This document shows positions 17,934 through 42,378 of a DNA stretch of 44,486 nucleotides, in pieces. The position numbers were made by a program, and so were the translations under genes. This DNA comes from Candidatus Gastranaerophilales bacterium (lineage in GTDB: Bacteria; Cyanobacteriota; Vampirovibrionia; Gastranaerophilales; Gastranaerophilaceae). Each line of letters starts with the position of its first letter. Positions within the stretch are counted from its first letter, which is position 1. The DNA lies in NCBI GenBank assembly GCA_944326675.1, contig CALVET010000061.1, positions 1-44,486 of the forward strand, read 5' to 3'. The notes under the pieces are model-generated. The model had not been told where the DNA came from. It made no database searches and was given only the letters and a program-made list of their open reading frames with translations.

Positions 17934-20900
17934 GTGAAATATACGTTTAATAACAAATATTTAAAAGATAATTCAAAGCCCGGTTCATACAGACGTGGTT
18001 ATGAGACCTTTCAAAAAGGCATGGTTGAAGATATAAAATTCAACGAAAATATTGTAAGAGCAAAGGTAAAAGGTAATTTCAAACCACATTATGAAACAGG
18101 GATTAAATTTACAAAAGCTGGTGCTAAGCCGACATGTAATTGTCCGCTCGAAGAGCCATGGTGTAAGCATGCTGTTGCTTTGGGTTTTGCTTCATTAAAA
18201 AATCATTTTTGGGATGAATATTTATATGAAAAATTTGATATAGAACCAAATTTGATTGACGAAGAACTGCCGATGAATGAAAACCCTATGGGTGATTTTA
18301 TATTTCATTTTAACCCGAAACGTCGTCAGAATTTCTTTTCAATTCTTGTAATGAACAGACACACAAAAAAAGTAATAAGGGACTTAGAGGCTGTTTTTAA
18401 ACAAATTATACAACGCCAAAGGGAAGAGGAAAATTTTGAACTGAATAATTCTCAAAAGCTGGAAGTTGTTATGTTTAAAATGCTCTTAAGTCAATCGAGG
18501 CTTGATAAAAAATCTGGCTGGTACGATGTTCAAATCAATAAATTTGACGAATTTTTCAGAATGTTATCCAAAATGGATGATGTAATTGACGCTAAAACAC
18601 ATAAAAAAATTCGCTTTAGCTCCACAATTTGGAATTTGTGCTTAGATGTTAATGTTTCTTATGTTGGAAATGTTTTATTAAGTTTATATTGGAAGAGAAA
18701 TGATATTGACGAAATATACCCCTTTGAAGAAGTAAGATATTTTTCAAGACAATTAAAATGGGGCAGATATAAGGACGTAATTTTTCAGACAGATACTTCT
18801 GTTAGTGTTGTTCCTCAAAATTTAACTAAATCAAGTTTTTCAGATATAAAAGACGCAGATGGCGGCAAATTTGTATATGAAGAGCTTCCTAAACTAAAAG
18901 AAGTAATGACAGTTAACATGTCTGAAGAAATGGAAAAATTAACGTTCGAAAAACGTCCGCCAAAATGCATTGTTGAGCTTGGTGTTGATTATGATCAATC
19001 CTTGAAAGCTTCATTGGAATTTGAATATGACGGCGTTAGGGTTCCTTATCAAAAGCAATATAAAAGCCCTTATGTTACCATTAAAGATCCACAAAAGGAC
19101 CTTTTGTACTGGATAAAAAGAGATATGCAATTTGAGCAAGCTGCCTATCAAATGCTTTTAGCTTGCAGGTTCGCTCCTGTTCAATCAAATAATTTGGCCC
19201 TTGATAAAGAGTATGCAATTGATTTTTACAATTACTATATTTCAAAAGCAGGGGACGGTTGGGAATTTATTGAAAAGGATGATTTATCTTTTTATAAGTT
19301 AAATAAAAAAGGCTTAAAATTAATTGCCGACATTGATTTTTCTCAAGAAGGTACAGATAAATTTGAAATAAAATTAAAAGGTTTGGCAGATGATAAAGAA
19401 GTTGATTTTGAAAAAATCATAGATTTAACTTATGAAGGCGCTAAATATTATAATATTCCCCAAGGGGGGCAAGTTTCAATACCTACAGATGACGTATTAT
19501 CTTTATTGAAATCTTTTAATACGTACGATGTTTATAAAAATGATGAAGATAAATACATAGTTAAAACTTACCGTGCAGGCGTTGTTTCTGAAATGGAGAA
19601 AATGGGCATAAGCCTTAAAATGAGCAGAAGTTTTTCAAAATTTTGGAAAGAAATTTCAACTTTTTCAACTATGGATACTACCCCTTTACCTAAGAACTTA
19701 AAAGCTGATTTACGTGAATATCAATTAAAAGGTTTTAGTTGGCTTTGGTTTTTATATAAATATGGCTTAAATGGGGTATTGGCTGATGACATGGGGCTTG
19801 GAAAAACAGTTCAAACATTGGCTCTATTACAAAAAGCAAAAGAGAAGGATCAAAAAGAGCCTAGTTTAGTAGTTTGTCCGACTAGCGTTGTATTTAACTG
19901 AGAAAAAGAAATTGAAAAATTTGCTCCGAATTTGAAATATCTAACCCTTTCTGGTACAGAAAGAAAGAAAAAATTTACCGAAATATCAAAATACGATGTT
20001 GTAATCACAAGTTATGCGCTTGTGAGAAGAGATATTGAAGAATTAAAAAAAGAAACATTCAGATATGTAATTTTAGATGAATCACAAAACATTAAAAATT
20101 ACCAAAGTCAAACATCAAAAGCTTGTAAAATGCTCAATTCAAAACATAGGCTTGCTCTTTCAGGTACACCAATTGAAAACAAATTGGAAGAATTGTGGTC
20201 TGTTTTTGATTTTCTTATGCCGGGATTTTTGTTTGATACGAATGAATTTATTCACAGGTTTGTTACTCCAATTGTTGAAAACGAGGATACAGAAGTTCAA
20301 AAGCGTCTAAAATCTCAAATTTATCCGTTTATCTTAAGACGTATGAAAAGAGATGTTGCCAAAGATTTACCGGATAAGATTGAATCAGTTGCATATTGCG
20401 AACTTACGCCTGATCAAAAGGATTTATATTTACAAGTTCTTGATTCAACAAAAGAAGAATTATTTAAATCTATTGAAACTGTCGGACTTGAAAAATCCAG
20501 AATGTCGATTTTCTCTGCATTATTGAGATTAAGACAAATATGCTGCCATCCTCGTTTGTATGATAAAGAAGGCAAACTGGGAATAAATGAATCAGGTAAA
20601 TTTGAACAGCTGCAATCAATGCTTGAGGAAATAATTTCTGAAAAACACAGAATTCTTTTATTCTCTCAATTTGTCGGCATGCTTGATATTATTCAAGATT
20701 GGCTGCAAAAGAAAGGAATTAAGCACGAGTATCTTTCAGGTAAAACAAAAGACCGTCAAGCTGTTGTAGAAAGATTTAATGAGGACCCCACAATTCCGAT
20801 TATGCTTGTTTCACTAAAAGCCGGCGGTACAGGATTAAACCTTACAGGCGCAGATTATGTTATACATTATGATCCATGGTGGAATCCTGCAGTTGAAGAC

Positions 20901-21101
20901 CAAGCAACAGATAGAGCTTATCGTATTGGTCAAACCAAGAAAGTATTTGTTTACCGCTTAATTACTAAAAATACCGTTGAAGAAAAAATTCAAGCACTTA
21001 AATCTAAAAAACGCTCGCTTGTTGATAGCGTAATTTCAATAGACAGAAATATAGTAAAATCTCTAACATATCAAGATATTAAAGATATATTTTCAATTTA
21101 G
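17934..21101 (+). pseudogene. SWIM-SNF2 family DEAD/H helicase interrupted by one in-frame TGA (19899-19901)
   Basis: One 1,055-codon frame encodes a Swi2/Snf2 ATPase. A SWIM zinc finger [12 protein letters not shown] lies at about 66-77, followed by an SNF2_N region, Walker [13 protein letters not shown] (about 619-630), motif II LDESQNIKNY, SGTPIENKLEELWSVFDFL, and the C-terminal helicase half with LVSLKAGGTGLNLT and QATDRAYRIGQTKKV. Codon 656 is TGA, exactly where the family has Trp (VVFN-x-EKEIEKFAP). The frame is intact on both sides. The break separates Walker A from motif II, so neither half would work alone. The downstream half has no ATG or ribosome site near 19932 (only a TTG). The start is GTG at 17934, two codons after an in-frame stop. 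This is a recent nonsense mutation, a base-call error, or UGA read-through. Confidence 0.85.
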
Positions 21102-25222: not shown

Positions 25223-27418
25223 TTAATCAACTCTATCAGTTATGCATCGAACTGAAAGTGCTTCAAGATTGTAAGTGGTAGAATAAGACCAAGTTGAACC
25301 ACTTAAATAATAATGGTAAGAACTATTAATATTTGATGTATTTTGTGTCCATATATAACTAGGATAACAATTATCTGAATAAGTCCCCTTGCACCCGTAT
25401 TGCGTGTAACACATTGGCCAATTGTAGCTTGAACTGGTTGTATTACTACAAATTTGTAATCCATATATATCAGCATAATTTGCTGAATATGTTTGATACC
25501 AATTTTTCATTTCAGAATATTTGGGTAGTCTCCAAGTTTTGTTTCCTGCAGTATATTGGCTGCATATTTCTTTTGCAGCTTCAAAATTGCATACTGTTCT
25601 ATTACATCCGCTATATCCATTATAAAATGCATTACAATAGCTACTATAAGCAGTGCGACCCTGCCAACAGCATTTAATTGATGTACAAGTACCGTTAAGT
25701 GGAAGTATTGTAACAGTTGATGGTATTGGTAGACCATTATCTCCCATATTATATTTTGTTACATAAAACTTATCTACAGGAAGTGCATTTTCTAACGATT
25801 TTACACATTTACCCGTTCCTCTATGAAATTCATATCCAGTTTGACACAAGTGGCACAATTGATCATCGCAAAGACTGCAGTTTGGGTATTTATTAGAACA
25901 ATCAAGACAATCATTATTGCTTTTATATGTACCCGCAGGGCATGTATTTGATTCTTGTGCTACGCAACGAACCGACATAGCATTTCTTTTGTAATCGGTA
26001 GAATAATTCCAACTTGAACCATTTAAATAATAAAAATACGCATAATCATTAGTATTGTTATTTCTAGTCCACAAGTAGCCTGGATTGCATGACAAAGTTC
26101 CAATATATGAGTAATTTACATAATTTCCGCAATTACTTTGTGTATAACAACGGGACCAATTTTTAGAGGAACCGGTTGTATTACTGCATAACTGAAGCCC
26201 GTTAGCTGACATTAGGGCAGAGTATGAGTACCAACTGCTCATTTCAGAATATGCAGGCAATCTCCAATTAAAACCATCTAGATTAAATCGTGCGCAAACT
26301 TCTCTTGCTGCATCCCAGTTGCATACTGTTCTTTTGCAACCGCTATATCCACCGTTTTCTGCATCACAATAGCTACTGTATGCAGTTTGACCTTGCCAGC
26401 AGCATTTTCCGTTTGTAGGGCATTTTTCATTATAATTTAGCAGAGTAATAGTCGAGGGAATAGGAAGCTCATCTCTATCACCCATGTTATATTTTGTTAC
26501 ATATAGATTTCCGACTTTCATTGTAAGTGGAGATAAGCTTTCACATTGACCATTTGAAAAATTAAAATTTTCCTTACATTTAGTACATCCAGTTGAATCA
26601 CATTCGGCGCAATTTCTCCATTTTTCGCTACATGACACTTGCTGACCGCCTGAACAATAATAACCTGTCGGACAGCTTGTGCAAGCGCTTTGATCTTCAG
26701 TTGGATATTCATTATCAGGACAAGTTGAACATTGCGATGTATTACCTTGTGAATAAGTTCCTTCGGGGCATTTGGTTTCTATACCGTCTACACAATATGA
26801 CCCAGCTGGACATGGAGCGCAAATATGGGATTTACCTAAAACTCCTCCAAGGTTTTCTTCAATTTTTGGTGCAGTGGTGCCGGAACATTTTACCTGTGTA
26901 TCTTGATTACATATATATCCTTTAGGACATTCTACACAAGCAGTTTTATCATCATTAGGCCAATAACCTATTTCACAATACTTACATTCTTTTCCGTTAT
27001 CTGAATATTTTCCGTTAGGACACGCTATACACGTACTATCAACCAACCTATAACCATTTTTACATTGTATACAAGCAGTATTAGTAAATTTAATACAATT
27101 AGGATATTCACTTGCAGGGCATTCTTTGCAAGTACAATTTGTTGAATCCTGACATTGACCCTCTGGACATGTTTTAGCGCAACTTAAACACTCGCTTGAT
27201 GTACATAATAAACAATCAGATGAAAATTTTGAACTGCAATCAGCACTTATTGAAGGGGTGTTTCCGCTGCCTCCTCCAAAACCAAAAACACTAGATGAGA
27301 ATTTTTTAGTAATCAAAGGTGCAAAAGCTGCTGTAATACAAGAAATTACAATTAATGAAATTAATAATTCCACCATAGAAAAGCCAAATTTACGGCATAA
27401 AAATAATTTGTGTTTCAT
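25223..27418 (-). CDS. prepilin-like cysteine-rich surface protein with duplicated DUF1566-like domain
   Basis: 731 residues. The N-terminus has a class III/type IV prepilin leader: a short basic leader, cleavage after G12, mature F13 with Glu at +5 (E17), then a hydrophobic helix (VELLISLIVISCITAAFAPL). Residues 61-292 and 493-540 are cysteine-rich repeats spaced like furin/TNFR/GCC2-type modules (C-P-x-G-x-Y-x-C). Residues about 296-487 and 548-727 are two copies of one domain with KYNMGD, LPIPST, CCWQG-TAYSSYC, GYSGC-RTVCN, WRLP-YSEM and a C-terminal SVRC, resembling the DUF1566/FISUMP class. It is probably displayed on a pseudopilus as an adhesin; binding partner unknown. GGGGAA precedes the ATG. 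A divergent XRE regulator shares its operator. Confidence 0.8.
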   Translation of the reverse strand: MKHKLFLCRKFGFSMVELLISLIVISCITAAFAPLITKKFSSSVFGFGGGSGNTPSISADCSSKFSSDCLLCTSSECLSCAKTCPEGQCQDSTNCTCKECPASEYPNCIKFTNTACIQCKNGYRLVDSTCIACPNGKYSDNGKECKYCEIGYWPNDDKTACVECPKGYICNQDTQVKCSGTTAPKIEENLGGVLGKSHICAPCPAGSYCVDGIETKCPEGTYSQGNTSQCSTCPDNEYPTEDQSACTSCPTGYYCSGGQQVSCSEKWRNCAECDSTGCTKCKENFNFSNGQCESLSPLTMKVGNLYVTKYNMGDRDELPIPSTITLLNYNEKCPTNGKCCWQGQTAYSSYCDAENGGYSGCKRTVCNWDAAREVCARFNLDGFNWRLPAYSEMSSWYSYSALMSANGLQLCSNTTGSSKNWSRCYTQSNCGNYVNYSYIGTLSCNPGYLWTRNNNTNDYAYFYYLNGSSWNYSTDYKRNAMSVRCVAQESNTCPAGTYKSNNDCLDCSNKYPNCSLCDDQLCHLCQTGYEFHRGTGKCVKSLENALPVDKFYVTKYNMGDNGLPIPSTVTILPLNGTCTSIKCCWQGRTAYSSYCNAFYNGYSGCNRTVCNFEAAKEICSQYTAGNKTWRLPKYSEMKNWYQTYSANYADIYGLQICSNTTSSSYNWPMCYTQYGCKGTYSDNCYPSYIWTQNTSNINSSYHYYLSGSTWSYSTTYNLEALSVRCITDRVD
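25560..26360 (-). repeat. coding-level duplication inside the surface protein
   Basis: The segment encoding the RTVCN...SGC part of domain copy 2 (about 25590-25625) and copy 1 (about 26320-26355) share near-identical runs such as GCATACTGTTCT and CCGCTATATCCA. The two repeat units start about 750 bases apart. Confidence 0.7.
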
Positions 27419-33083: not shown

Positions 33084-34415
33084 ATGGAAAATAATTTTGA
33101 TACAATTTGTGCAACATTAACACCTCAAGCACTCTCAGCAGTTGGAATAATAAGAATATCAGGCGATAAAGCTTTTAACATAGCAAATGAAATATTTTCT
33201 AAAACAATCACCCCAAAACAAATAAACTATGGTTTTATATTGGATGATAAAAAAAACAAGCTCGATGAAGTAATACTTTTGCCTTTTTTATCCCCTCACA
33301 GCTATACAGGTGAGGACGTTATTGAAATTCAAACCCATGGTAACCCATCTATTTTAAATGCGGTTTTAGAGTTAATAATTTCAAAAGGAGCAAGACTAGC
33401 TCAAAAAGGCGAATTTACAAAGCGCGCTTTTTTAAATCATCGAATTGATTTATCTCAAGCTGAAGCGGTTTTAGATGTTATTCATGCAAAAAGTACAAAA
33501 TCAGCTCAAAATGCACTAAATAATCTCGGCGGATATTTAAAAAACAAAATTAATACACTAAAGTCAGATTTAATTGATATTTATTCAAAAGTAATTGCTT
33601 CAATTGATTTTCCTGAAGATGTTGCTGAAGTTAACTCAAAAACAATCGTATCGATATGTAATGATAAAATTCTAGAAATTAACGACATTTTAAAAAACGC
33701 TAAAAGCCACGATTTTATTAGGGACGGTTTGTGTGCATGTTTAATTGGGGTTCCGAATGTCGGCAAAAGCTCTTTATTTAACGCTCTTTTAAATTATTCT
33801 CGTGCTATTGTAACAGATATTGCGGGCACAACAAGAGATACAATAAAAGAAGCAATCAATCTTGACGGATATATTGTTAATTTTATTGACACGGCGGGAA
33901 TAAGAGATAAAGAAAAAGCAGATTTAGTTGAGCAAATCGGAATTGATAATTCAATTGAAGCAATTAAACAATCTGACATCGTTTTATTTTTATATGAAAA
34001 TAATTTTTCTGATGAAATTGATGAAGAATTAATCAATTTAGCGAAAGATAAACAGGTTATTTTTGTTAAAACAAAAGCAGATATAAACAAAAAAAATGAC
34101 AACATAAACGCCATTGAAATAAGCTCAAAAAGTGGTTTTGGGGTTGATGTCCTCAAAAATAAAATAACATCAATAATAAAAAATCTAATTATTGAAGATA
34201 CAAACTATACAACAAATAAAAGACAACAGACTTGTTTGATAAGAGCAAAAGAATGCCTTGAAAACGTAATAAACACCTCTAAAATATCTGAAATAGCAGA
34301 TTTGTATGCAATGGATTTAAAAGGTGCAATTTTGGCATTAGATGAAATTACGGGCGAAGTTTTAACTGATAGCATTTTGGATAATGTCTTTTCAAACTTC
34401 TGTATCGGTAAATAA
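33084..34415 (+). CDS. mnmE: tRNA modification GTPase MnmE
   Basis: 443 residues. The N-terminal folate-binding domain (TICATLTPQALSAVGIIRIS) is followed by HGNPSILNAVLELIISKGAR, helical domain, G1 GVPNVGKSS (222-230), GTTRDT, DTAGIRDK and the C-terminal CIGK, whose Cys is needed for modification. With MnmG it adds carboxymethylaminomethyl or aminomethyl groups to U34 of tRNAs. The last 24 bases overlap the convergent FAD oxidoreductase gene. Confidence 0.96.
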   Translation: MENNFDTICATLTPQALSAVGIIRISGDKAFNIANEIFSKTITPKQINYGFILDDKKNKLDEVILLPFLSPHSYTGEDVIEIQTHGNPSILNAVLELIISKGARLAQKGEFTKRAFLNHRIDLSQAEAVLDVIHAKSTKSAQNALNNLGGYLKNKINTLKSDLIDIYSKVIASIDFPEDVAEVNSKTIVSICNDKILEINDILKNAKSHDFIRDGLCACLIGVPNVGKSSLFNALLNYSRAIVTDIAGTTRDTIKEAINLDGYIVNFIDTAGIRDKEKADLVEQIGIDNSIEAIKQSDIVLFLYENNFSDEIDEELINLAKDKQVIFVKTKADINKKNDNINAIEISSKSGFGVDVLKNKITSIIKNLIIEDTNYTTNKRQQTCLIRAKECLENVINTSKISEIADLYAMDLKGAILALDEITGEVLTDSILDNVFSNFCIGK

Positions 34416-35693
34416 TTTGCCTTTGATATATTTGGCAATTGCTTCACCCATAGACATGCAGCTTTTCTGCACCCTTAGGGCGCTATGAGTTTCAAAATCT
34501 GCTCCAACGAGCTTTCCAATGACACATAAATTTTCAATATCTGCACTAATTAATGACTCAACAGGCAATTTATAATCAACCGTTTTTAATAATACCGATT
34601 TGTTTTTTTCGCCCGAGTGGATATCAATAGGGTAATTAGCCTCCAAAACCGGGTTTTTAATTTCTTTTTGATTTAAAATGTCATTTTTAGTGTAAATATA
34701 TTTTGTTTTCACGCGGTTTTGTTCTCTTATACCAGTTTGAACCGCTATATTTACTATTATTGCATTTTCAAATCCGACAAAATATTTCTTAACAAAGCGA
34801 TACAGTCTATAAATTGCCATTCTGGCATTTTTCAATTCAAGCGAATATTTAAAAGGGTTATCTATATAATTGGCAAATCGAGGACAATTAAAAGCAACCT
34901 CGCCTTTAGCACCTGCAACTGAAAAAATTTGAAAATAACTTCGATCGCAATCTAATAAAATTCCATCTTGGACACCTTTTTTAAGATATTTATCCAATGC
35001 CCAATATTTTGATGTATCCCACGTAGAAGCAGTTGTAAAGTGGATTTCATTCATTGTATCTCTATCGTTTCGATAGGTATTGGTAATATTCTCATCAGAA
35101 TCTACTTGTTTAATAAATTCACAAAATTTATCTATATCGACATTGCCCAAAATAAATCTTAGAGAATTTTGTTGTTTTAAGTTTGAATCATGTAAAAAAT
35201 TACATCCGCATAGTTGTGAAAACTCACCTGAACCTGTAGCATCAACAAAATACTTCGCTTCGATTGGTATTGATAATAAATTAGATTTTAATATAACAGT
35301 ATTGATAAATTTGTTTTGCTTTTTTACTTCTAAAACTTCTGTTTCATATAAAATATCAAGATTGTTTTTTAATTCTTCAGAAGACAACAAATCATCCAAA
35401 ACAATTTTTAAAATCTCAGGATTGAACCAGCCATCATTTAAATCTTTATATGTAACTTGAGCTTTGTATTTTTTTGCGGTTTCAACAAGTTTATCATAAT
35501 ATTCGCAATTGTAATTTTTAACTGAAGATTTCATAACCGGAACAACAAGCCCGCCGGTCATTAAGCCGCCAAGAAAATTATTCTTTTCAACAAGCAAAGT
35601 TTTTAGATTGTTTTTAGCACAAATATAAGCACAAGCACAACCTGAGGTTCCGCCTCCAACAATTACAACATCATATTTTGCTAATTTTAACAT
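34392..35693 (-). CDS. FAD-dependent oxidoreductase (FAD_oxidored family)
   Basis: 433 residues. The N-terminal dinucleotide fold YDVVIVGGGTSGCACAYICA (about 8-27) and the LLVEKNNFLGGLMTGGLV segment mark the FAD-dependent oxidoreductase family. YFVDATGSGEFSQLCG (about 147-162) and LCVIGKLVGADFETHSALRV near the end complete the FAD pocket. Family members act on varied substrates and no specific reaction is deduced. It has a predicted leaderless start. Confidence 0.82.
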   Translation of the reverse strand: MLKLAKYDVVIVGGGTSGCACAYICAKNNLKTLLVEKNNFLGGLMTGGLVVPVMKSSVKNYNCEYYDKLVETAKKYKAQVTYKDLNDGWFNPEILKIVLDDLLSSEELKNNLDILYETEVLEVKKQNKFINTVILKSNLLSIPIEAKYFVDATGSGEFSQLCGCNFLHDSNLKQQNSLRFILGNVDIDKFCEFIKQVDSDENITNTYRNDRDTMNEIHFTTASTWDTSKYWALDKYLKKGVQDGILLDCDRSYFQIFSVAGAKGEVAFNCPRFANYIDNPFKYSLELKNARMAIYRLYRFVKKYFVGFENAIIVNIAVQTGIREQNRVKTKYIYTKNDILNQKEIKNPVLEANYPIDIHSGEKNKSVLLKTVDYKLPVESLISADIENLCVIGKLVGADFETHSALRVQKSCMSMGEAIAKYIKGKLFTDTEV

Positions 35694-35807: not shown

Positions 35808-35835
35808 GGTTATGATAATGTATATTATGTAAACA
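35808..35835 (+). other. attL: dif-like Xer site (host XerC arm, phage XerD arm)
   Basis: XerC-side arm GGTTATGATAA, centre TGTATA, XerD-side arm TTATGTAAACA. The centre is identical to E. coli dif, and the arms match it well (E. coli arms GGTGCGCATAA and TTATGTTAAAT). The 15 bases 35818-35832 are repeated exactly at 41447-41461. Confidence 0.85.
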
Positions 35836-35847
35836 CAGGAGTTAAAA

Positions 35848-36273
35848 ATGGAAAACAAGGAAAACATCAAAAAAAGAAAAACAACTACATTAAAAGACAT
35901 TCTAGACACTGCATTAATAATGAAAAATGTAGATAAAAAAAACAAGAGCAATACTAAAGAATTAATTCTGAAGAGTGTGGAATTATATGAGCCAATATCA
36001 TTTAAAGAAATTATCAAAATAAACAAGAAAAAATACAGAAATTTAAAAATAAAAATTCTGAAAGAAAACCTAGAAGAAACAATAAAATGTTTAAAAAATT
36101 CAATAGAAATATATAAAGAGTTGATAAATAGAACAGAATTTTGGGAAAGAAAAAGCACATACGATTTTAATTTTAAAGATTGGAACACACTAAAAAAAAC
36201 TAACGGAAAAATAACAAGATATTTCAATGAAATAAAGAATATATATGTAAAAATAGAAACGGAGGAAATATGA
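35848..36273 (+). CDS. phage protein of unknown function, first ORF after attL
   Basis: 141 residues, very rich in Lys and Ile, with several predicted helices and no motif that I recognise. AGGAG lies 6-7 bases before the ATG, which is 13 bases from the att site. The stop is TGA, overlapping the next start as ATGA. In the circular phage it would be the first gene downstream of the promoter at 41347, a position suiting an early or regulatory protein. The hydrophobic antisense frame here is an artefact of its lysine codons. Confidence 0.75.
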   Translation: MENKENIKKRKTTTLKDILDTALIMKNVDKKNKSNTKELILKSVELYEPISFKEIIKINKKKYRNLKIKILKENLEETIKCLKNSIEIYKELINRTEFWERKSTYDFNFKDWNTLKKTNGKITRYFNEIKNIYVKIETEEI

Positions 36274-36377
36274 AAATCGATTTAAACACAATTATTAAAA
36301 TCATCAATCTTGTTAAAACAGTAATTGAAATGATACAAGAGACATTTTTTAAAGAACAAGGAGAAAAAAATGTATAG
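36270..36377 (+). CDS. 35-residue phage micro-protein
   Basis: ATG at 36270 preceded by GGAGGAAAT, the best ribosome site in the prophage. The product starts MKIDLNTIIKIINLVKTVIE, an amphipathic helix with a hydrophobic face. It overlaps the previous stop (ATGA) and the next gene start. A membrane-active or lysis-related role is possible; there is no homology I can name. Confidence 0.6.
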   Translation: MKIDLNTIIKIINLVKTVIEMIQETFFKEQGEKNV

Positions 36378-36594
36378 TAGATATTTAAAAATGTTATTAA
36401 AAAAACAAAAGAGAGATTTGAAAGATATAAATAAATTCATAAAGAATGAAGAAGAAAAAGCAACACTGACTTATGAAAAAAATATAATAAAAAAATTATA
36501 TTCTGAAAAAGGATTGACAAAATTTGTAATAAGACAACTAGAAGAGCAAATAAAAAAAGTAGAAAATGGAGAAATAATAAAAAATGAAATTTAA
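36370..36594 (+). CDS. 74-residue lysine-rich phage protein
   Basis: AAGGAG lies just upstream of the ATG at 36370. It is highly charged and helical (KKQKRDLKDINKFIKNEEEK), likely coiled-coil, with no recognised domain. It overlaps the micro-protein before it and VP3 after it (11 bases), so it belongs to one tightly packed phage operon. Confidence 0.65.
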   Translation: MYSRYLKMLLKKQKRDLKDINKFIKNEEEKATLTYEKNIIKKLYSEKGLTKFVIRQLEEQIKKVENGEIIKNEI

Positions 36595-37189
36595 AAATCA
36601 TTATTCCCAAATAGGAAAAAAAGAAGGATTTAAAATTAAATATGATGCTGAAGATCTAACTGACCAAAGTCAATTATCAAGTGCAAGTATAACAGAAATG
36701 GCGAAAAGGTACGGAATAGACGCAATAATTGCAAAAGCAGAACAAAAGAATGTAGAAGCAAATAGCGCATTAGCTAATAAATTATATGGTAATGACTATA
36801 CACAAATGTTTAAATCAAAAGAAGAATTATTAAATACAAAGAAAAGATTAAATAATTTATTTGAAAATATTCCGGCAAGAATAAGAAAAGAACAATTTAA
36901 TGACAATCCAATGGAATTTATAAATGCTTATACTTGTAATGACGAAACAAAATTAGGAAAATTGGCGGAAATTGGAATTGTATCAAAATCACAACTTGAA
37001 TCAGTGAAAAATTACAATAAACAAATAAAACTACAAAAACAAGAAATTGAAACACAAAAAGCATTCATAAAAGCATTAGAAAGTAAGCAAGGAGAATTAT
37101 ATGAAAAATTTAAAGAAACTGGCAATATTAACATTAATAATATTCAAAACAATCAAACCGATAATACAAATGTACAAAAAAGTGTATAA
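36584..37189 (+). CDS. gokushovirus internal scaffolding protein VP3
   Basis: 201 residues. The family pattern is visible: LTDQSQLSSASITEMAKRYG (about 24-43), then NLFENIPARIRKEQFNDNPM and EFINAY (about 88-113), matching the gokushovirus scaffold segment 'L-P-x-x-I-R-x-x-F-x-N-N-P'. The C-terminal part is a coiled coil rich in Gln/Asn. It directs procapsid assembly with VP1. Its last 89 bases overlap the next ORF in another frame. Confidence 0.85.
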   Translation: MKFKNHYSQIGKKEGFKIKYDAEDLTDQSQLSSASITEMAKRYGIDAIIAKAEQKNVEANSALANKLYGNDYTQMFKSKEELLNTKKRLNNLFENIPARIRKEQFNDNPMEFINAYTCNDETKLGKLAEIGIVSKSQLESVKNYNKQIKLQKQEIETQKAFIKALESKQGELYEKFKETGNININNIQNNQTDNTNVQKSV

Positions 37190-37367
37190 TAATCTGATCA
37201 GAAATGATGAACAAATAAAAGAAAAATGTAAAAGCATAATAGAAGCTGACAAAGTAATAAAAACAACGTTTATTCATCCAAAAAAAGAATATGATGAAAA
37301 GATAAAACAAAGATTTAAAAGACAATGGAACAGTATGGAAAGGGTAAATAAATGTCAAATGCATTAA
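37101..37367 (+). CDS. 88-residue phage protein overlapping VP3, N-terminal membrane helix
   Basis: Begins within VP3 with its own AAGGAG 7 bases before the ATG, and ends 16 bases inside the capsid gene. Residues about 5-24 (KKLAILTLIIFKTIKPIIQM) are hydrophobic; the rest is basic and helical. The overlap at both ends and the ribosome site argue for a real gene. Function unknown; a VP5-like or lysis role is speculation. Confidence 0.65.
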   Translation: MKNLKKLAILTLIIFKTIKPIIQMYKKVYNNLIRNDEQIKEKCKSIIEADKVIKTTFIHPKKEYDEKIKQRFKRQWNSMERVNKCQMH

Positions 37368-39013
37368 ATATAGAAAAATTTTATAAGAGTTTTCCAACAT
37401 TATCACATAAAAGAAACAGATTCCCATTCGAAAAAGAAATAAATTGGAACATGAAACTTGGAGAGATAACACCAATTGCGGCAATTAGAGTAGTACCGGG
37501 ACAAACATATAATTTAGACATGTCTACAGTAATAAAAGTAGCACCATTATCAATAACACCAATGGATAATTTAGTAGCTAAATTTTTTGCATTTTATAAT
37601 CCGGATAGAAATGACTGGACAAAATATAAATACTGGTTTGGCGAAAAACAAAATCCAGAAAATCCTGAAGAAGAACCAACGTATTTAGTACCAAAAGTAA
37701 CAGCTCCGGAGGGAGGTTTTGAGTTTAATTCATTTTATGACAATATAGGATGCCCACCAGGAGTACCTAATTATAAAATTGATGCATTCTTACCAAGAAC
37801 AGATAGGCAAATTTATAACTATTATTTCAGAAATCAAACATTAGAAAATCCATTAAGTGTAAATCTAGGAGATGAAGATGACGACCCAAACGAAAATATG
37901 AAATTAAGAAAAATTTGCAAACCAAGAGATTTATTTACACAATGTTTACCTACACAAAGCGGTACAACTCCGGTTGAAATACCATTAGGAAGTACTGCAC
38001 CAGTTATAGGAAATGGTAAAACACTAGGATTAAGTAGTGGTACAATAAATGTAGGTATATGGCCGGACAGTAGTAGTGCAATAAATATTAGTACTTCAGC
38101 ATATGGAAAAGATGTTGGACAAAATTTACCAGAAGGAGAACCGGGCCCAATAGGATCATTAGGAGTAACAAAAGAAGGAAAAAATTCGGGTCTAATAGCG
38201 GACTTATCAAATGCAATGGGAGCACCATTAGAAGGTTTGTATCAAGCAGTAGCTTATAATACATTCCAATATCTAACGTCCAGAGGAGGAAATAGATATT
38301 TTGAACATATATCTAATATATATGGAACAGTAAATCCTGATGGAGTATTACAACAACCGGAATTTTTAGGTTCTACATCACAAATGATAGAATTTGATAC
38401 AGTTACACAAACATCATCAACAGCAAGTGAACCGACACCATTAGGAAATAGAACTGCTAATGGATATATGGAAAACTACGGCGAATTAATAAACAAATCT
38501 TTTGGAGAGTTCGGCTGGATTATAATATATGGTGTTGTAACGTGCTATCCAAAATATCAACAAGGCGTAAGCAAGTTAATGCAAACTGACGACCCACTAG
38601 AATTATTTAATCCAATTTTTAATTTAATGGGAGATGAAGCTATATACAGAAGTGAAATATTTGTACAATCTGATGATGTAGTAAATGAACAAGGAACACC
38701 AGTAAATGATGAAGTATTTGGATACGGAAAGAGAAACAGCAGATTATTATATCCGGTAAATGAAATACACGGAGAACAGAGAAGTAGTTATGCGCAATCA
38801 TTAGACGCATATCATTTTGCACAAGAATTTGAAGAAGCACCGACTTTAAATAAAGATTTTGACAAAGTAACGGATGAAGCTTTTAAAAGAGCATTGACAG
38901 TAACAAATGAAACACAATTTATATGTAATTCATTAATTACAGGAATACAAGATATAGAAGTACCATTAGAAGCAATACCAAATATAAACCCGATGTTGGC
39001 ATTCAATACTTAG
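37352..39013 (+). CDS. major capsid protein VP1 (Gokushovirinae)
   Basis: 553 residues. The N-terminal block (GEITPIAAIRVVPGQTYNLD then LSITPMDNLVAKFFAFYNP, about 36-92) and C-terminal block (SLDAYHFAQEFEEAPTLN, about 481-498) match the gokushovirus major capsid jelly-roll. The middle (about 185-340) is a Gly/Ser/Thr-rich variable insert, in the position of the three-fold spike loop that defines the subfamily and contacts the host. AAAGGG lies before the ATG. It is the strongest family marker in the prophage. Confidence 0.93.
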   Translation: MSNALNIEKFYKSFPTLSHKRNRFPFEKEINWNMKLGEITPIAAIRVVPGQTYNLDMSTVIKVAPLSITPMDNLVAKFFAFYNPDRNDWTKYKYWFGEKQNPENPEEEPTYLVPKVTAPEGGFEFNSFYDNIGCPPGVPNYKIDAFLPRTDRQIYNYYFRNQTLENPLSVNLGDEDDDPNENMKLRKICKPRDLFTQCLPTQSGTTPVEIPLGSTAPVIGNGKTLGLSSGTINVGIWPDSSSAINISTSAYGKDVGQNLPEGEPGPIGSLGVTKEGKNSGLIADLSNAMGAPLEGLYQAVAYNTFQYLTSRGGNRYFEHISNIYGTVNPDGVLQQPEFLGSTSQMIEFDTVTQTSSTASEPTPLGNRTANGYMENYGELINKSFGEFGWIIIYGVVTCYPKYQQGVSKLMQTDDPLELFNPIFNLMGDEAIYRSEIFVQSDDVVNEQGTPVNDEVFGYGKRNSRLLYPVNEIHGEQRSSYAQSLDAYHFAQEFEEAPTLNKDFDKVTDEAFKRALTVTNETQFICNSLITGIQDIEVPLEAIPNINPMLAFNT

Positions 39014-39021
39014 GAGGAAAA

Positions 39022-39165
39022 ATGGAAATTAATAAAATCTTATTAGAAGGATACTTAGTATTTGGCATTATATTAAGTTACACAATAACTTTTATGATGG
39101 GTGCATTGTATGGAGAAAGAAAAATGGAAGGAGAACAAAACAATGGCGAATCAATACAAAGCTAA
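39022..39165 (+). CDS. 47-residue single-span membrane protein of the phage
   Basis: ATG at 39022 follows AGGAGG by 4 bases, directly after the capsid gene. Residues about 10-31 (GYLVFGIILSYTITFMMGAL) form one transmembrane helix, and the tail is charged. Size, topology and placement suit a lysis or membrane-targeting peptide, but this is inference. It overlaps the next gene by 23 bases. Confidence 0.65.
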   Translation: MEINKILLEGYLVFGIILSYTITFMMGALYGERKMEGEQNNGESIQS

Positions 39166-39289
39166 AAAGAAATCATTATCAATGCAAGAGAATTTAAAAT
39201 CTTGGAACAAAGGAACAAAACAAAAATTAATTGCACAACCTAGCAACATACTAACTAAATCCAGTAGAAACGGATTAATTTTAACGTAA
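39143..39289 (+). CDS. 48-residue basic phage protein, candidate DNA-binding (VP8/J-like)
   Basis: Start chosen at ATG 39143 (MANQYKAKKK...), with AAGGAG 10 bases upstream; the longer frame from 39101 lies within the previous gene. Ten Lys/Arg and few acidic residues recall the small DNA-condensing proteins (J of phiX174, VP8 of gokushoviruses). The gene order after VP1 is compatible. Family identity is not proven. Confidence 0.55.
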   Translation: MANQYKAKKKSLSMQENLKSWNKGTKQKLIAQPSNILTKSSRNGLILT

Positions 39290-39304
39290 GAGGTAAAGCA
39301 ATAA

Positions 39305-39323
39305 GGGGGAGATATTCTCCCCC
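39305..39323 (+). other. GC-rich 8-bp hairpin between small basic protein and VP2
   Basis: GGGGGAGA, loop TAT, TCTCCCCC. It stands out in an otherwise AT-rich genome. There is no T-run after it. It could be an mRNA-stability or partial-termination signal, or a structure in packaged ssDNA. Confidence 0.6.
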
Positions 39324-39338
39324 GTTCATAGGTGTAAT

Positions 39339-40121
39339 ATGGTAGATTGGAATAAAATAAAAAATTATGCTACTAGCGGATTAAATACAATAAAAGATAT
39401 AGCAAGCAGTAATATACCAGGAGCAATATACAATGGAATAGGAGCAACAATGGGACTTTTTGGAATAGGAAGTTCAAACAGTGCAAAAGCAGCACAAAAA
39501 CAATATGAATATAATCTTGCACTACAGAAACAAGCACAAGATTGGAATGAATATATGTATAGAAATAGATATAAATTCCAATACGAAGATATGTTGAATG
39601 CAGGAATAAACCCACTTTTTGGAATGGGACAAGCACCAACAGTAACAAGTGGAACTAATAGTGTAGGAATGGCTGATGCAGTGGGAGAACAAAACAACAA
39701 ATTTCAGCAAATGATGTCATTATTAGACTTTGGGCAAAATTTATCAGCAAAAAGGGCACAAACAAAATTATTAGAAAATCAAGCAAATACAGAAGCAATA
39801 AATACGAATTTAAAATCATTAGAAGTAATACAACAGCAAATCAATAATCTAAAAGGACAAAAAGATTTAAAATATTATGATAGAGAAAAACTGGCAAATT
39901 TAAAAAATTTAGAAGCGCAAACATATAAGAATTTAAAAGAAGCACAAAATACTATGGCAGATACAAAACTTATTAATACAACAGTAAGAGGAACTGCAAG
40001 AGAAGTAAAACTTCAAGAAGATTGGGACAAAAATCATAGAATATTAAAAAATATAGCTAACACTATACGTCGTTTTGGTTTTGGAGGTTCGTTAGGTGTT
40101 TCGCTTCCTTTGAAGAAATAA
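39339..40121 (+). CDS. DNA pilot / minor spike protein VP2
   Basis: 260 residues. A Gly-rich hydrophobic N-terminal segment (NGIGATMGLFGIG, about 32-44) is followed by NEYMYRNRYKFQYEDMLNAG and INPLFGMG (about 69-96), the hallmark 'NRYQ-x-x-x-E-D-M-x-x-A-G-I-N-P' of gokushovirus VP2. The second half is a long coiled coil (about 140-225), fitting a DNA-translocating tube like that of phiX174 H. A GGTG lies upstream of the ATG. Confidence 0.9.
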   Translation: MVDWNKIKNYATSGLNTIKDIASSNIPGAIYNGIGATMGLFGIGSSNSAKAAQKQYEYNLALQKQAQDWNEYMYRNRYKFQYEDMLNAGINPLFGMGQAPTVTSGTNSVGMADAVGEQNNKFQQMMSLLDFGQNLSAKRAQTKLLENQANTEAINTNLKSLEVIQQQINNLKGQKDLKYYDREKLANLKNLEAQTYKNLKEAQNTMADTKLINTTVRGTAREVKLQEDWDKNHRILKNIANTIRRFGFGGSLGVSLPLKK

Positions 40122-40136
40122 ATTTATAAATTTTTG

Positions 40137-40160
40137 TTAATTTTCCTAGTCGAAAATTAA
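40137..40160. other. AT-rich hairpin upstream of the replication gene
   Basis: TTAATTTTC, 6-base loop CTAGTC, GAAAATTAA. It is the only perfect inverted repeat in the ~100-base VP2-VP4 gap and could be part of the replication origin or a regulatory element. No T-run follows. Confidence 0.4.
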
Positions 40161-40222
40161 TAAAAGATAATTGAATAATAATAACCAATAATAATATTTC
40201 CATAATGAAAGTATAACATAAA

Positions 40223-41203
40223 ATGTGTTTAAATCCAATAAAAATTATTAATAAAAATACAAATGAAGAAATCCTTGTTAAATGTGGCAAGTGCATACTA
40301 TGTAAAAGGCAAAAATGCCGAACGTGGGCGATAAAATTATATCACGAATCACAATATTACAATAAAATGTGTATGATAACACTAACATTTCGTCCACGTT
40401 TTTTATTAAGACCAAAAGTAAAAGAACTAACAAAATATCATACGTATAAACAAAATGATGGAACAACTAAAAGAATAAAAGAAAAATATACAACTATGAT
40501 AGGTCCACATTACATAACAAATGTAAAAAAAACAGGATGGTTAGTAACACTATTTATTAAAAAATTAAGAAAAGAACTAGCAAAGCAAGATAGGTTTATT
40601 TCATATTTTGCAGTAGGAGAACACGGAACACAAAACACACATAGAGCACATTGGCACATTCTATTTTTTGGAATAGATAAAGATGATTTAGGAAGCATTA
40701 ATATAGGAAAATCAAAAAAAAATAAGGAAATATATTTTTCTCCTTTTATTGATAAAATTTGGAGCTATGAAAAGATGAAAATAGGACAACACACAATATC
40801 AGAAGTAACTCCAAGGACTATAAAATATGTAGCAAATTACACAATGAAAAAATTGTATAACAACAATAAAAAAGAGTATCCGGTTACAATGCGATGCAGC
40901 AGCCATAACAAAATAGGGAAAAAATGGGCTAGAAGATACCACAAAGAATTAAGAAAAGGGTACTTATTGGACGGGGATAATCACAAATATTCAATACCAG
41001 AATCATATTATAAAGAAATGCTAAGATATGAAAATCTAGCAAGCAACGAATCAATGAATCAAACTGCAATGATTATAGAAAATAAAAAAGATCAAATGAT
41101 AAACAAACTAAAAGAAAAAGGTTTGTTAAATGAAGAAGAAATAAGAAAAAAAGCAAAAAGACTTGAAATAAGATACAAAAAACAAGAAAGAGACACAATT
41201 TAA
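40223..41203 (+). CDS. replication initiation protein VP4 (HUH endonuclease)
   Basis: 326 residues. Cysteine-rich N-terminus VKCGKCILCKRQKC (about 19-32), then CMITLTFRPR, SYFAVGEHGTQNTHRAHWHI with the HUH metal-binding His143 and His145, and the catalytic tyrosine region KYVANYTMKK (Y202, Y206). This order is that of gokushovirus Rep. It nicks the phage double-stranded form and starts rolling-circle replication. The ATG has no strong ribosome site, and the 101-base gap upstream suggests separate control. Confidence 0.92.
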   Translation: MCLNPIKIINKNTNEEILVKCGKCILCKRQKCRTWAIKLYHESQYYNKMCMITLTFRPRFLLRPKVKELTKYHTYKQNDGTTKRIKEKYTTMIGPHYITNVKKTGWLVTLFIKKLRKELAKQDRFISYFAVGEHGTQNTHRAHWHILFFGIDKDDLGSINIGKSKKNKEIYFSPFIDKIWSYEKMKIGQHTISEVTPRTIKYVANYTMKKLYNNNKKEYPVTMRCSSHNKIGKKWARRYHKELRKGYLLDGDNHKYSIPESYYKEMLRYENLASNESMNQTAMIIENKKDQMINKLKEKGLLNEEEIRKKAKRLEIRYKKQERDTI

Positions 41204-41346
41204 AAAAATAGTGTCATTGGCGCTTATAATGTCAAGGGGGCTAGCGCTCAGGCTGGCTGTTCACTCCTGCCGAGGGCGGTTTTCTAGTGCTGCGCACTAG
41301 AAATTATTAAATAATAGGCACTTAGAAGAAATTTTAAAAAAGGGTA
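41204..41346. other. GC-rich non-coding region of the prophage, candidate origin
   Basis: No ORF. Bases 41221-41300 are much richer in G+C than the rest of the phage and include the perfect 10-bp hairpin TTTCTAGTGC-TGC-GCACTAGAAA (41281-41303), AGCGCT, and CCGAGGGCGG. GC-rich, hairpin-rich intergenic DNA beside the Rep gene is where microviruses place origin and packaging signals. The hairpin may also end VP4 transcription. Confidence 0.5.
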
Positions 41347-41374
41347 TTGACATAATAGATAAAAAATTTATACT
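41347..41374 (+). promoter_or_regulatory. near-consensus promoter at the right end of the prophage, facing outward
   Basis: TTGACA (41347-41352, 6/6), 16-base spacer, TATACT (41369-41374, 5/6). The predicted start is near 41381. In circular phage DNA it reads through attP into the ORF at 35848. In the prophage it points at attR and the response regulator. Confidence 0.75.
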
Positions 41375-41422
41375 AAATAAATAACAGGGCTTAAAACTTG
41401 TTACAGACCGCTTAAATTAAAC

Positions 41423-41436
41423 ATGTCGATACATGT
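41423..41436. promoter_or_regulatory. paired ACATGT sites just left of attR
   Basis: ACATGT, CGAT, ACATGT, at about 41421-41436, lying in the predicted 5' leader of the outward promoter and about 10 bases from the attR arm. It could be an operator or an accessory site for recombination. Confidence 0.35.
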
Positions 41437-41464
41437 AATAAGCATTATGTATATTATGTAACAG
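41437..41464 (+). other. attR: dif-like Xer site (phage XerC arm, host XerD arm)
   Basis: XerC-side arm AATAAGCATTA, centre TGTATA, XerD-side arm TTATGTAACAG. The 15 bases 41447-41461 are identical to the attL copy. Joining outer arms gives the predicted empty host dif: GGTTATGATAA, TGTATA, TTATGTAACAG. Confidence 0.85.
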
Positions 41465-41688: not shown

Positions 41689-42378
41689 ATGCAAAATACT
41701 ATTTTAAATAACAATGAAGAAAAAATCAGATTAATGATTGTTGATGACCATAAATTGTTTCGCTGCGGAATAAAGTCATTATTTAAAAATTCACCTTGTG
41801 TGTGCGTTGTAGCAGAAGCTTCAAACGGCAAAGAAGGAATCAGTAAAATTGTTGCGCAAAATCCCGATGTTGTACTATTGGATTTAGAATTAGGTGATAT
41901 AAACGGTCTTGACTTAATTGAAAAAGTGTCCAGTCAAAAGCCAAATGTAAAATTTGCAATTTTAACATCACATATAAATGAACATGTAATTAATAAGGCC
42001 ATGAAAATGGGTATTTACGGTTATATTTTAAAAGATATTAACACAGAATTGCTAGATTTGATTGTAAAATCTGTTTCAAGAGGAGCAATGTGGATTGATA
42101 AAAAAGCAGTTCAAATCTTAAGAGAATTAAACCCAAATGTAATACCAAATACACAAGTCAGCCGTTCAAATTTTAAACAAACACACGCTAACCTTACTGC
42201 AAGAGAATATGAAGTATTAAAACTTGTTGTGGATGGCAAATCTAACCAACAAATAGCAGACGAGCTGAATATTTCTGAGCACACATCTAAAGCCCACGTA
42301 TGCAACATAATTCAAAAGCTTGTTGTAGATGATAGAACACAAGCTGCAGTTAAAGCAATTAGAGAAGGTATTGTTTAA
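41689..42378 (+). CDS. NarL/FixJ-family response regulator
   Basis: 229 residues. Receiver domain with acidic pair D19-D20 (MIVDDHKLF), phospho-acceptor D65 in VVLLDLELGDINGLDL, and conserved Ser/Thr and Lys regions (AILTSH, YILKD). A linker precedes the LuxR helix-turn-helix (about 166-229, LTAREYEVLKLVVDGKSNQQ). No histidine kinase is adjacent. AAGGAG lies 6-7 bases before the ATG. It is the first host gene right of the prophage, so the outward phage promoter could reach it. Confidence 0.92.
   Translation: MQNTILNNNEEKIRLMIVDDHKLFRCGIKSLFKNSPCVCVVAEASNGKEGISKIVAQNPDVVLLDLELGDINGLDLIEKVSSQKPNVKFAILTSHINEHVINKAMKMGIYGYILKDINTELLDLIVKSVSRGAMWIDKKAVQILRELNPNVIPNTQVSRSNFKQTHANLTAREYEVLKLVVDGKSNQQIADELNISEHTSKAHVCNIIQKLVVDDRTQAAVKAIREGIV

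Follow-up and report, generated by a model that had tools for sequence, protein, structure and literature searches.

The stretch of DNA analysed here, hereafter the window, comprises 44,486 nucleotides of contig CALVET010000061.1 from a Candidatus Gastranaerophilales bacterium. Gene content and flanking sites confirmed positions 35808-41436 as a Microviridae provirus in a Gastranaerophilales chromosome, with a dif-like Xer site at either end. The two sites occupy 35808-35835 and 41437-41464, with a start-to-start distance of 5,629 bp, and the genes for VP3, VP1, VP2 and VP4 between them have uninterrupted frames, all on the + strand. The features of the element are as follows.

35808-35835, + strand: attL, GGTTATGATAA.TGTATA.TTATGTAAACA, made up of the host XerC arm, the core and the phage XerD arm.
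35848-36273, + strand: 141-aa open reading frame (ORF) occupying the VP5 position and conserved across the clade (39-48% identity to ORFs of relatives L063 and L007-L009).
36270-36377, + strand: small ORF of 35 aa, called from its translation alone.
36370-36594, + strand: small ORF of 74 aa, an ORF call with a weak PHROG match (0.002).
36584-37189, + strand: VP3 internal scaffolding protein (Chlamy_scaf, 7e-8; PHROG_1642, 1e-12).
37101-37367, + strand: 88-aa ORF that overlaps both VP3 and VP1; it is conserved in L063 (56%) and, in part, in L008.
37352-39013, + strand: VP1 major capsid protein, 553 aa (Phage_F, 1.9e-91; PHROG major head, 2.7e-107; SpV4 capsid 9cgm, 1.4e-69; EC6098 capsid 8des, 8e-69).
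37973-38215, + strand: VP1 residues 208-288, the EF4-loop (threefold protrusion) module, located by alignment with SpV4 and by profile matches.
39022-39165, + strand: ORF of 47 aa with one predicted hydrophobic stretch, not found in L063.
39143-39289, + strand: VP8/J-like small basic protein of 48 aa, lysine-rich and presumably DNA-binding, between VP1 and VP2.
39339-40121, + strand: VP2 DNA pilot protein (PHROG_8693, 5e-13).
40223-41203, + strand: VP4 rolling-circle replication initiator (PF23343, 8e-12; PHROG_942, 7e-53).
41211-41251, + strand: hairpin after VP4 (GTGTCA, a stem and a TATA..GWCAAGG loop), also present in L007, L008, L009, L063 and L212.
41437-41464, + strand: attR, AATAAGCATTA.TGTATA.TTATGTAACAG, made up of the phage XerC arm, the core and the host XerD arm.

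The initial annotation had described VP1 to VP4 as all intact between two Xer sites, which is borne out by the Pfam and PHROG matches, the open frames and the exact coordinates. Two marks of the Microviridae are present, namely a jelly-roll capsid protein of the Phage_F family, which aligns to both 9cgm and 8des, and a pilot protein together with a HUH rolling-circle initiator in a genome of 4-6.5 kb. The translation of VP4 contains the HUH motif HRAHWH and the two-tyrosine (YxxxY) motif YVANY, as in superfamily I rolling-circle initiators. The C-terminal half of the VP8-like protein is near-identical in L063, L007 and L009, where the gene occupies the same VP1-VP2 interval, and the 47-aa ORF could, speculatively, encode a lysis peptide. 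Just past VP4, six relatives have in common GTGTCA (TGTCA in one of them), then an inverted repeat whose loop contains a TATA..ACAAGG-like sequence; the stem sequence varies among them while the pairing, judged by eye, is preserved, making this hairpin a candidate replication origin or packaging signal. Rfam gave no match inside the provirus.

Both ends of the element carry dif-like sites of 11-6-11 layout with an identical core, as in XerCD/dif-integrating elements (IMEX), and the end repeat has 17 of 18 bases identical across 18 nt. Of the five copies of the 12-mer TGTATATTATGT in the 1.7-Mb genome, two lie precisely at the provirus ends and three have no dif-like context; the backwards control pattern does not occur in this genome. 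Exchange at the core between attL and attR would give the attB GGTTATGATAA.TGTATA.TTATGTAACAG and the attP AATAAGCATTA.TGTATA.TTATGTAAACA. Joining the host flanks in silico yields an intergenic region of 367 bp. It can be aligned across dif to the empty sites of four relatives, and its spacing to the oxidoreductase and response regulator genes on its two sides matches theirs. The phage-side site combines a good XerD arm with a poor XerC arm, and those of the other proviruses of the genus do likewise. No recombinase was found among the phage ORFs in Pfam and PHROG searches, and the genome of the window has exactly two tyrosine recombinases (Phage_integrase), a 295-aa protein best matching XerD (310 bits) and a 305-aa protein best matching XerC (305 bits), both slightly below the NCBIfam equivalog cut-offs. 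Integration by homologous recombination or by an unrelated recombinase would be compatible with these sub-threshold scores and with a role of XerCD that is predicted for this host, but the homology is limited to the dif-like site, the layout is 11-6-11, the exchange falls at the core and the phage brings no recombinase, and we consider such a route very improbable.

The initial annotation had further placed the provirus among host genes on both sides in a Melainabacteria-like chromosome, and both statements hold. To the left lie yidC, mnmE and a gene for a flavin adenine dinucleotide (FAD) oxidoreductase, and to the right genes for a LuxR-type response regulator and a rhodanese. The genome belongs to the same genus as genome G171, the Candidatus Gastranaerophilales metagenome-assembled genome (MAG) BRZ_AF__bin114 (CALVAA010000006.1), and NCBI taxonomy lists the Gastranaerophilales within Candidatus Melainabacteria. 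Two of the host genes frame dif:

34392-35693, - strand: FAD-dependent oxidoreductase (Pfam FAD_oxidored, E=3.5e-75), the conserved left neighbour of dif, beside it in 28 of 28 genomes of the genus.
41689-42378, + strand: LuxR-type response regulator (Response_reg, 9e-25; GerE, 1e-19), the conserved right neighbour of dif, at 190-262 bp from it at 23 empty sites.

A dif-like site lies 82-173 bp beyond the oxidoreductase gene in every one of these 28 genomes, and the response regulator follows dif at the distance given above in 23 of them. Twenty-four have no microvirus at dif; the other four (the window, G171, G200 and G203) have one between the dif neighbours. These four occupants represent three distinct VP1 lineages and both orientations, with the phage genes running from the oxidoreductase to the regulator in the window and G200 and in the reverse direction in G171 and G203. 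One ancestral integration, inherited vertically in place of repeated infection, would fit the finding that all cases of the family occupy one chromosomal locus, and the closeness of the window and G171 phages, whose VP1 and VP4 proteins are 76% and 77% identical and which share the chromosomal dif and its neighbours (L006/L063 in G171). However, these two proviruses are oppositely oriented relative to dif and the host genes, 24 of the 28 congeners carry no microvirus, and the remaining occupants belong to VP1 clades far from theirs, each nesting with free viruses of its own. The opposite orientations rule out a single inherited insertion and make an assembly artefact very unlikely, and we find vertical inheritance hardly tenable as an account of this locus.

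Two observations on the same locus are recorded here. In G089 a 465-aa non-viral ORF separates dif from the response regulator (L203, 8446-9843). In the G171 provirus the att sites (L063, 7553-7600 and 13077-13124) have in common the core, the XerD arm and about 16 more bases (CAGGCTTTAAACTCTT), so that this phage appears to contain host sequence from past dif.

Across the order, Phage_F was detected in 13 of 383 genomes and in none of 14 control genomes. Nine proviruses have two dif-like end sites with identical core hexamers (the window, G171, G200, G203, G032, G066, G371, G174 and G178). The four that belong to the window's genus have TGTATA, another four have TATATA, and G066 has TAGATA. 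One site lies near a gene of the same oxidoreductase family in eight of the nine; this was not seen in G032, a member of a different family. The remaining cases are a truncated contig of G344 bearing the oxidoreductase, one dif-like site and a VP1; a 5.4-kb contig of G317 without a dif-like site; and divergent fragments in G359 (L073) and G212 (L204), on short contigs, with larger VP1-like proteins (open frames of 598-758 aa) that are not near a dif-like site. Judged by its occupants, one dif site serves several distant microvirus lineages.

These genomes also answer the check for an assembly chimera that the initial annotation had called for. A free microvirus genome could have been joined to host contigs at a short AT-rich repeat during assembly or binning; the core repeat is short and such dif-like repeats can mislead assemblers, and in a survey of more than 13,000 microviral genomes the Melainabacteria assignments then known were set aside on such grounds, as single contigs in fragmented MAGs (Kirchberger 2022, PMC9239249). 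The same junction locus is, however, occupied in at least eight independent assemblies by viruses with VP1s down to 27-35% identity with that of the window, on contigs of 16-112 kb that bear host genes on at least one side and in part on both, in both orientations and with core hexamers matching the host variant. A chimera is effectively excluded.

Gene content, both att sites, the matching cores, the conserved empty site, the repeated independent occupation and the XerC/XerD-like pair of the host argue strongly for a temperate Microviridae provirus integrated at the chromosomal dif of the Gastranaerophilales via host XerC and XerD, and we regard this interpretation as very probable. In the mechanism that we propose, the phage lacks a recombinase of its own, and its double-stranded replicative form would bear a single dif mimic, attP, just downstream of VP4. 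This attP would recombine with dif (attB) by the action of host XerC and XerD across the common 6-bp core. Next to the oxidoreductase this would leave an intact dif, composed of the host XerC arm and the phage XerD arm, and at the far end a site with a degenerate XerC arm. Because an intact dif would be kept, chromosome dimer resolution could continue after integration and excision would stay possible. After excision, VP4 would start rolling-circle replication and the virion would be built of VP1, VP2, VP3 and VP8.

Microvirus proviruses at dif are known in Bacteroidetes (PMC3091885) and Enterobacteriaceae (PMC7062461). Enterogokushovirus EC6098 of Escherichia (PMC7062461, NC_048874) likewise belongs to the Microviridae, has no recombinase, sits at the chromosomal dif with an intact upstream and a degenerate downstream dif, and has the same VP4-[VP5]-VP3-VP1 order. 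It differs from the window phage in its host phylum, in VP1 (30% identical), in the location of attP, which is upstream of VP4 in EC6098 (misc_feature 1-28) and downstream of it in the window phage, and in the VP8-like gene, which comes after VP2 in EC6098 and between VP1 and VP2 in the window phage. The BMV proviruses of Bacteroidetes, compared by description, likewise have dif-like sites and no integrase of their own (PMC3091885), whereas their host phylum is another, their size is approximately 6.2-6.7 kb and they are placed outside the gokushoviruses.

Several observations weigh against a temperate phage active at dif. No repressor or lysis gene was identified among the provirus genes. The change point of the GC skew lies 7.6 kb from dif on one contig and 37 kb away, and weakly, on another, so that the skew does not clearly place dif at the terminus. 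The three closest free relatives, the viruses bajarodmic 902, 440 and 879, have no detectable dif-like attP, and the evidence consists of assemblies or MAGs, not of reads spanning the junctions or of a circular form. A stranded remnant, integrated but no longer capable of excision and virion production, would agree with the degenerate XerC arm of attR and with a reading of the provirus drawn from sequence and not from expression or circular-form data. Yet the provirus retains its four core genes, the VP8-like gene and the conserved hairpin in intact form, as well as an intact core at either end, and degenerate phage-side arms also occur in enterobacterial gokushovirus prophages, one of which experimentally infects and lysogenizes (PMC7062461). 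We therefore think a remnant unlikely and retain the interpretation of a temperate provirus that could still excise.

The window VP1 shares 67, 63 and 60% identity with those of bajarodmic 902, 440 and 879 and approximately 30% with those of the named gokushoviruses phiMH2K and EC6098, whose mutual identity is 50%. Over the named members phiMH2K, SpV4 and EC6098 the identities are 29-31%. We placed it in VP1 trees of 26 and 34 sequences, in which phiMH2K, SpV4, EC6098 and KT264826 stand for the named Gokushovirinae (Chp1, Chp2 and Chlamydia phage 4 were left out). A clade with 100/100 support, on a stem of approximately 2 changes per column, unites the window, G171 and the three bajarodmic viruses, and bajarodmic 892 and 890 and G317 join it. 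The clade groups with the gokushoviruses at 74/82, and a tree leaving it out is equally good (approximately unbiased test, p-AU 0.49). The Chlamy_scaf VP3 (7e-8) and the circular order VP1-VP2-VP4-[VP5]-VP3 are those of the Gokushovirinae; no recognisable VP5 was found, the ORF at 35848-36273 having no reliable Pfam or PHROG match and no VP5 family match. Membership of the window phage in the Gokushovirinae is neither shown nor rejected by these comparisons, and we describe it as a new deep lineage of uncertain subfamily. Of the complete gokushovirus prophage proposed in the initial annotation, the complete microvirus provirus and its Xer/dif integration thus stand, and the subfamily label does not. 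The gokushovirus host link proposed for this lineage is likewise not established for the window phage itself, but judging from the trees it does hold through other proviruses: the free viruses from rodents and marmots among which G200 and G203 nest have 46-53% identity to phiMH2K and EC6098, and G174 falls together with EC6098 and a gokushovirus from the human gut.

The closest free relatives, bajarodmic 902, 440 and 879 (PQ007151, PQ006561 and PQ007127), come from Neotoma bryanti faeces; their VP4s are 62, 52 and 50% identical to that of the window phage, and they have the same gene order and the same conserved hairpin, but no host is known for them. The exact 14-nt sequence of core and XerD arm occurs once each in bajarodmic 890 and in six of eight further free relatives that were examined from these clades, the carriers being bajarodmic 877, 1116, 556, 473, 890 and 892 and mar38; bajarodmic 883 has it with one mismatch. 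The chance expectation, estimated from dinucleotide shuffles, is 0.0005 exact sites per genome, and wherever positions are listed the site lies at or just past the end of VP4. Neither the window VP1 nor an alignment of five sequences found a relative in scans of IMG/VR. A motif scan of IMG/VR yielded 110 contigs, six of them microviral and all closer to the G203 phage (46-54%) than to the window; these six (L098, L101, L123, L160, L161 and L173) are 3.6-5.3 kb long and carry a TGTATA dif-like site.

Residues 208-288 of the window VP1 align with the EF4 loop of SpV4, with a similar loop length at this position. In SpV4 the loop builds the threefold protrusion, whose function is stated to be unknown and for which host attachment has been suggested (PMC11281519). 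The order-wide VP1 search also matched stretches of 80-100 residues in large ORFs of other genomes, and ten such stretches were made into a fibre profile, which is biased towards the window VP1 because that protein was used to select them. The profile matches the loop in 14 of 34 VP1s with up to 62 bits (reversed or shuffled VP1s, at most 6.4 bits), and a profile-profile comparison of loops and fibres in hhalign gave a probability of 98.9 (E 1e-17) over an 80-residue module. The fibre profile also finds items outside the selection, namely the VP1 loops of G371 C23, G032 and KT264826 and the fibre ORFs of G141, G209 and G273. Besides positions 37973-38215 of the window, the module is located in L022-L030, L032, L074 (3496-5427), L273 (6986-9655) and L274 (8131-10512).

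In the three genomes whose context was checked, the surroundings of the fibre ORFs are those of tailed phages. A terminase large subunit is nearby in G328; tail sheath, baseplate J and baseplate wedge genes lie immediately upstream in G141 (myovirus-like); and in G109 there is a T7-like head/tail set, with a fibre N-terminus matching a tail-fibre family (podovirus-like). In the fibres the module follows an LPR/LPK segment, and another copy of this segment in the same protein bears a different insert (L026), which we read as a collar-like insertion. Matches of the profile are confined to the window's family in a phylum sample of 386 genomes; among GenBank phages it matches 38 microvirus capsid records and two Dulem virus 29 records, one of them annotated as a tail collar protein. 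It has no Pfam or PHROG family match, and comparison with solved structures gave nothing meaningful (best 0.24, antibody chains). The loop of SpV4 (9cgm) aligns in position with that of the window phage but has no tail-fibre relatives by these profiles, whereas the window loop has them. A single-sequence AlphaFold2 model of VP1 (pLDDT 29.5, pTM 0.17) was not used. On balance, we lean slightly towards the view that the EF4 loop of the window phage and of many microviruses is a receptor-binding module exchanged with the tail-fibre tips of podovirus-like and myovirus-like phages of the same bacterial family; the receptor-binding role itself is suggested by this relationship.

Elsewhere in the window, ORFs for murA, leuS and lepA are present. 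The adjacent ORFs at 17934-19901 and 19932-21101 resemble halves of one SNF2-type helicase, a gene that may be split by a frameshift or stop, and a 731-aa cysteine-rich ORF at 25223-27418 has a pilin-like N-terminus and two similar C-terminal repeats.

Searches of the open-access literature, in which absence is weak evidence, found nothing linking Microviridae with Gastranaerophilales and nothing joining gokushovirus, tail fiber and receptor. The analysis makes a new host phylum firm, points to an integration mechanism apparently of a type already described but with attP placed differently, and finds, as its most novel element, a module that the capsid loop has in common with tailed phages. 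Gut viruses seen chiefly as free genomes gain a firm host by repeated, oriented, site-specific integration across many genomes, and it becomes a testable prediction that free rodent-gut viruses with a matching attP belong to hosts of this kind. The sharing of a module between VP1 loop and tail fibre makes the function of the gokushovirus protrusion directly testable; if the exchange is real, a host-recognition domain would have been transferred between Monodnaviria and Duplodnaviria, and the role of the mushroom protrusion of gokushoviruses would thereby be explained.

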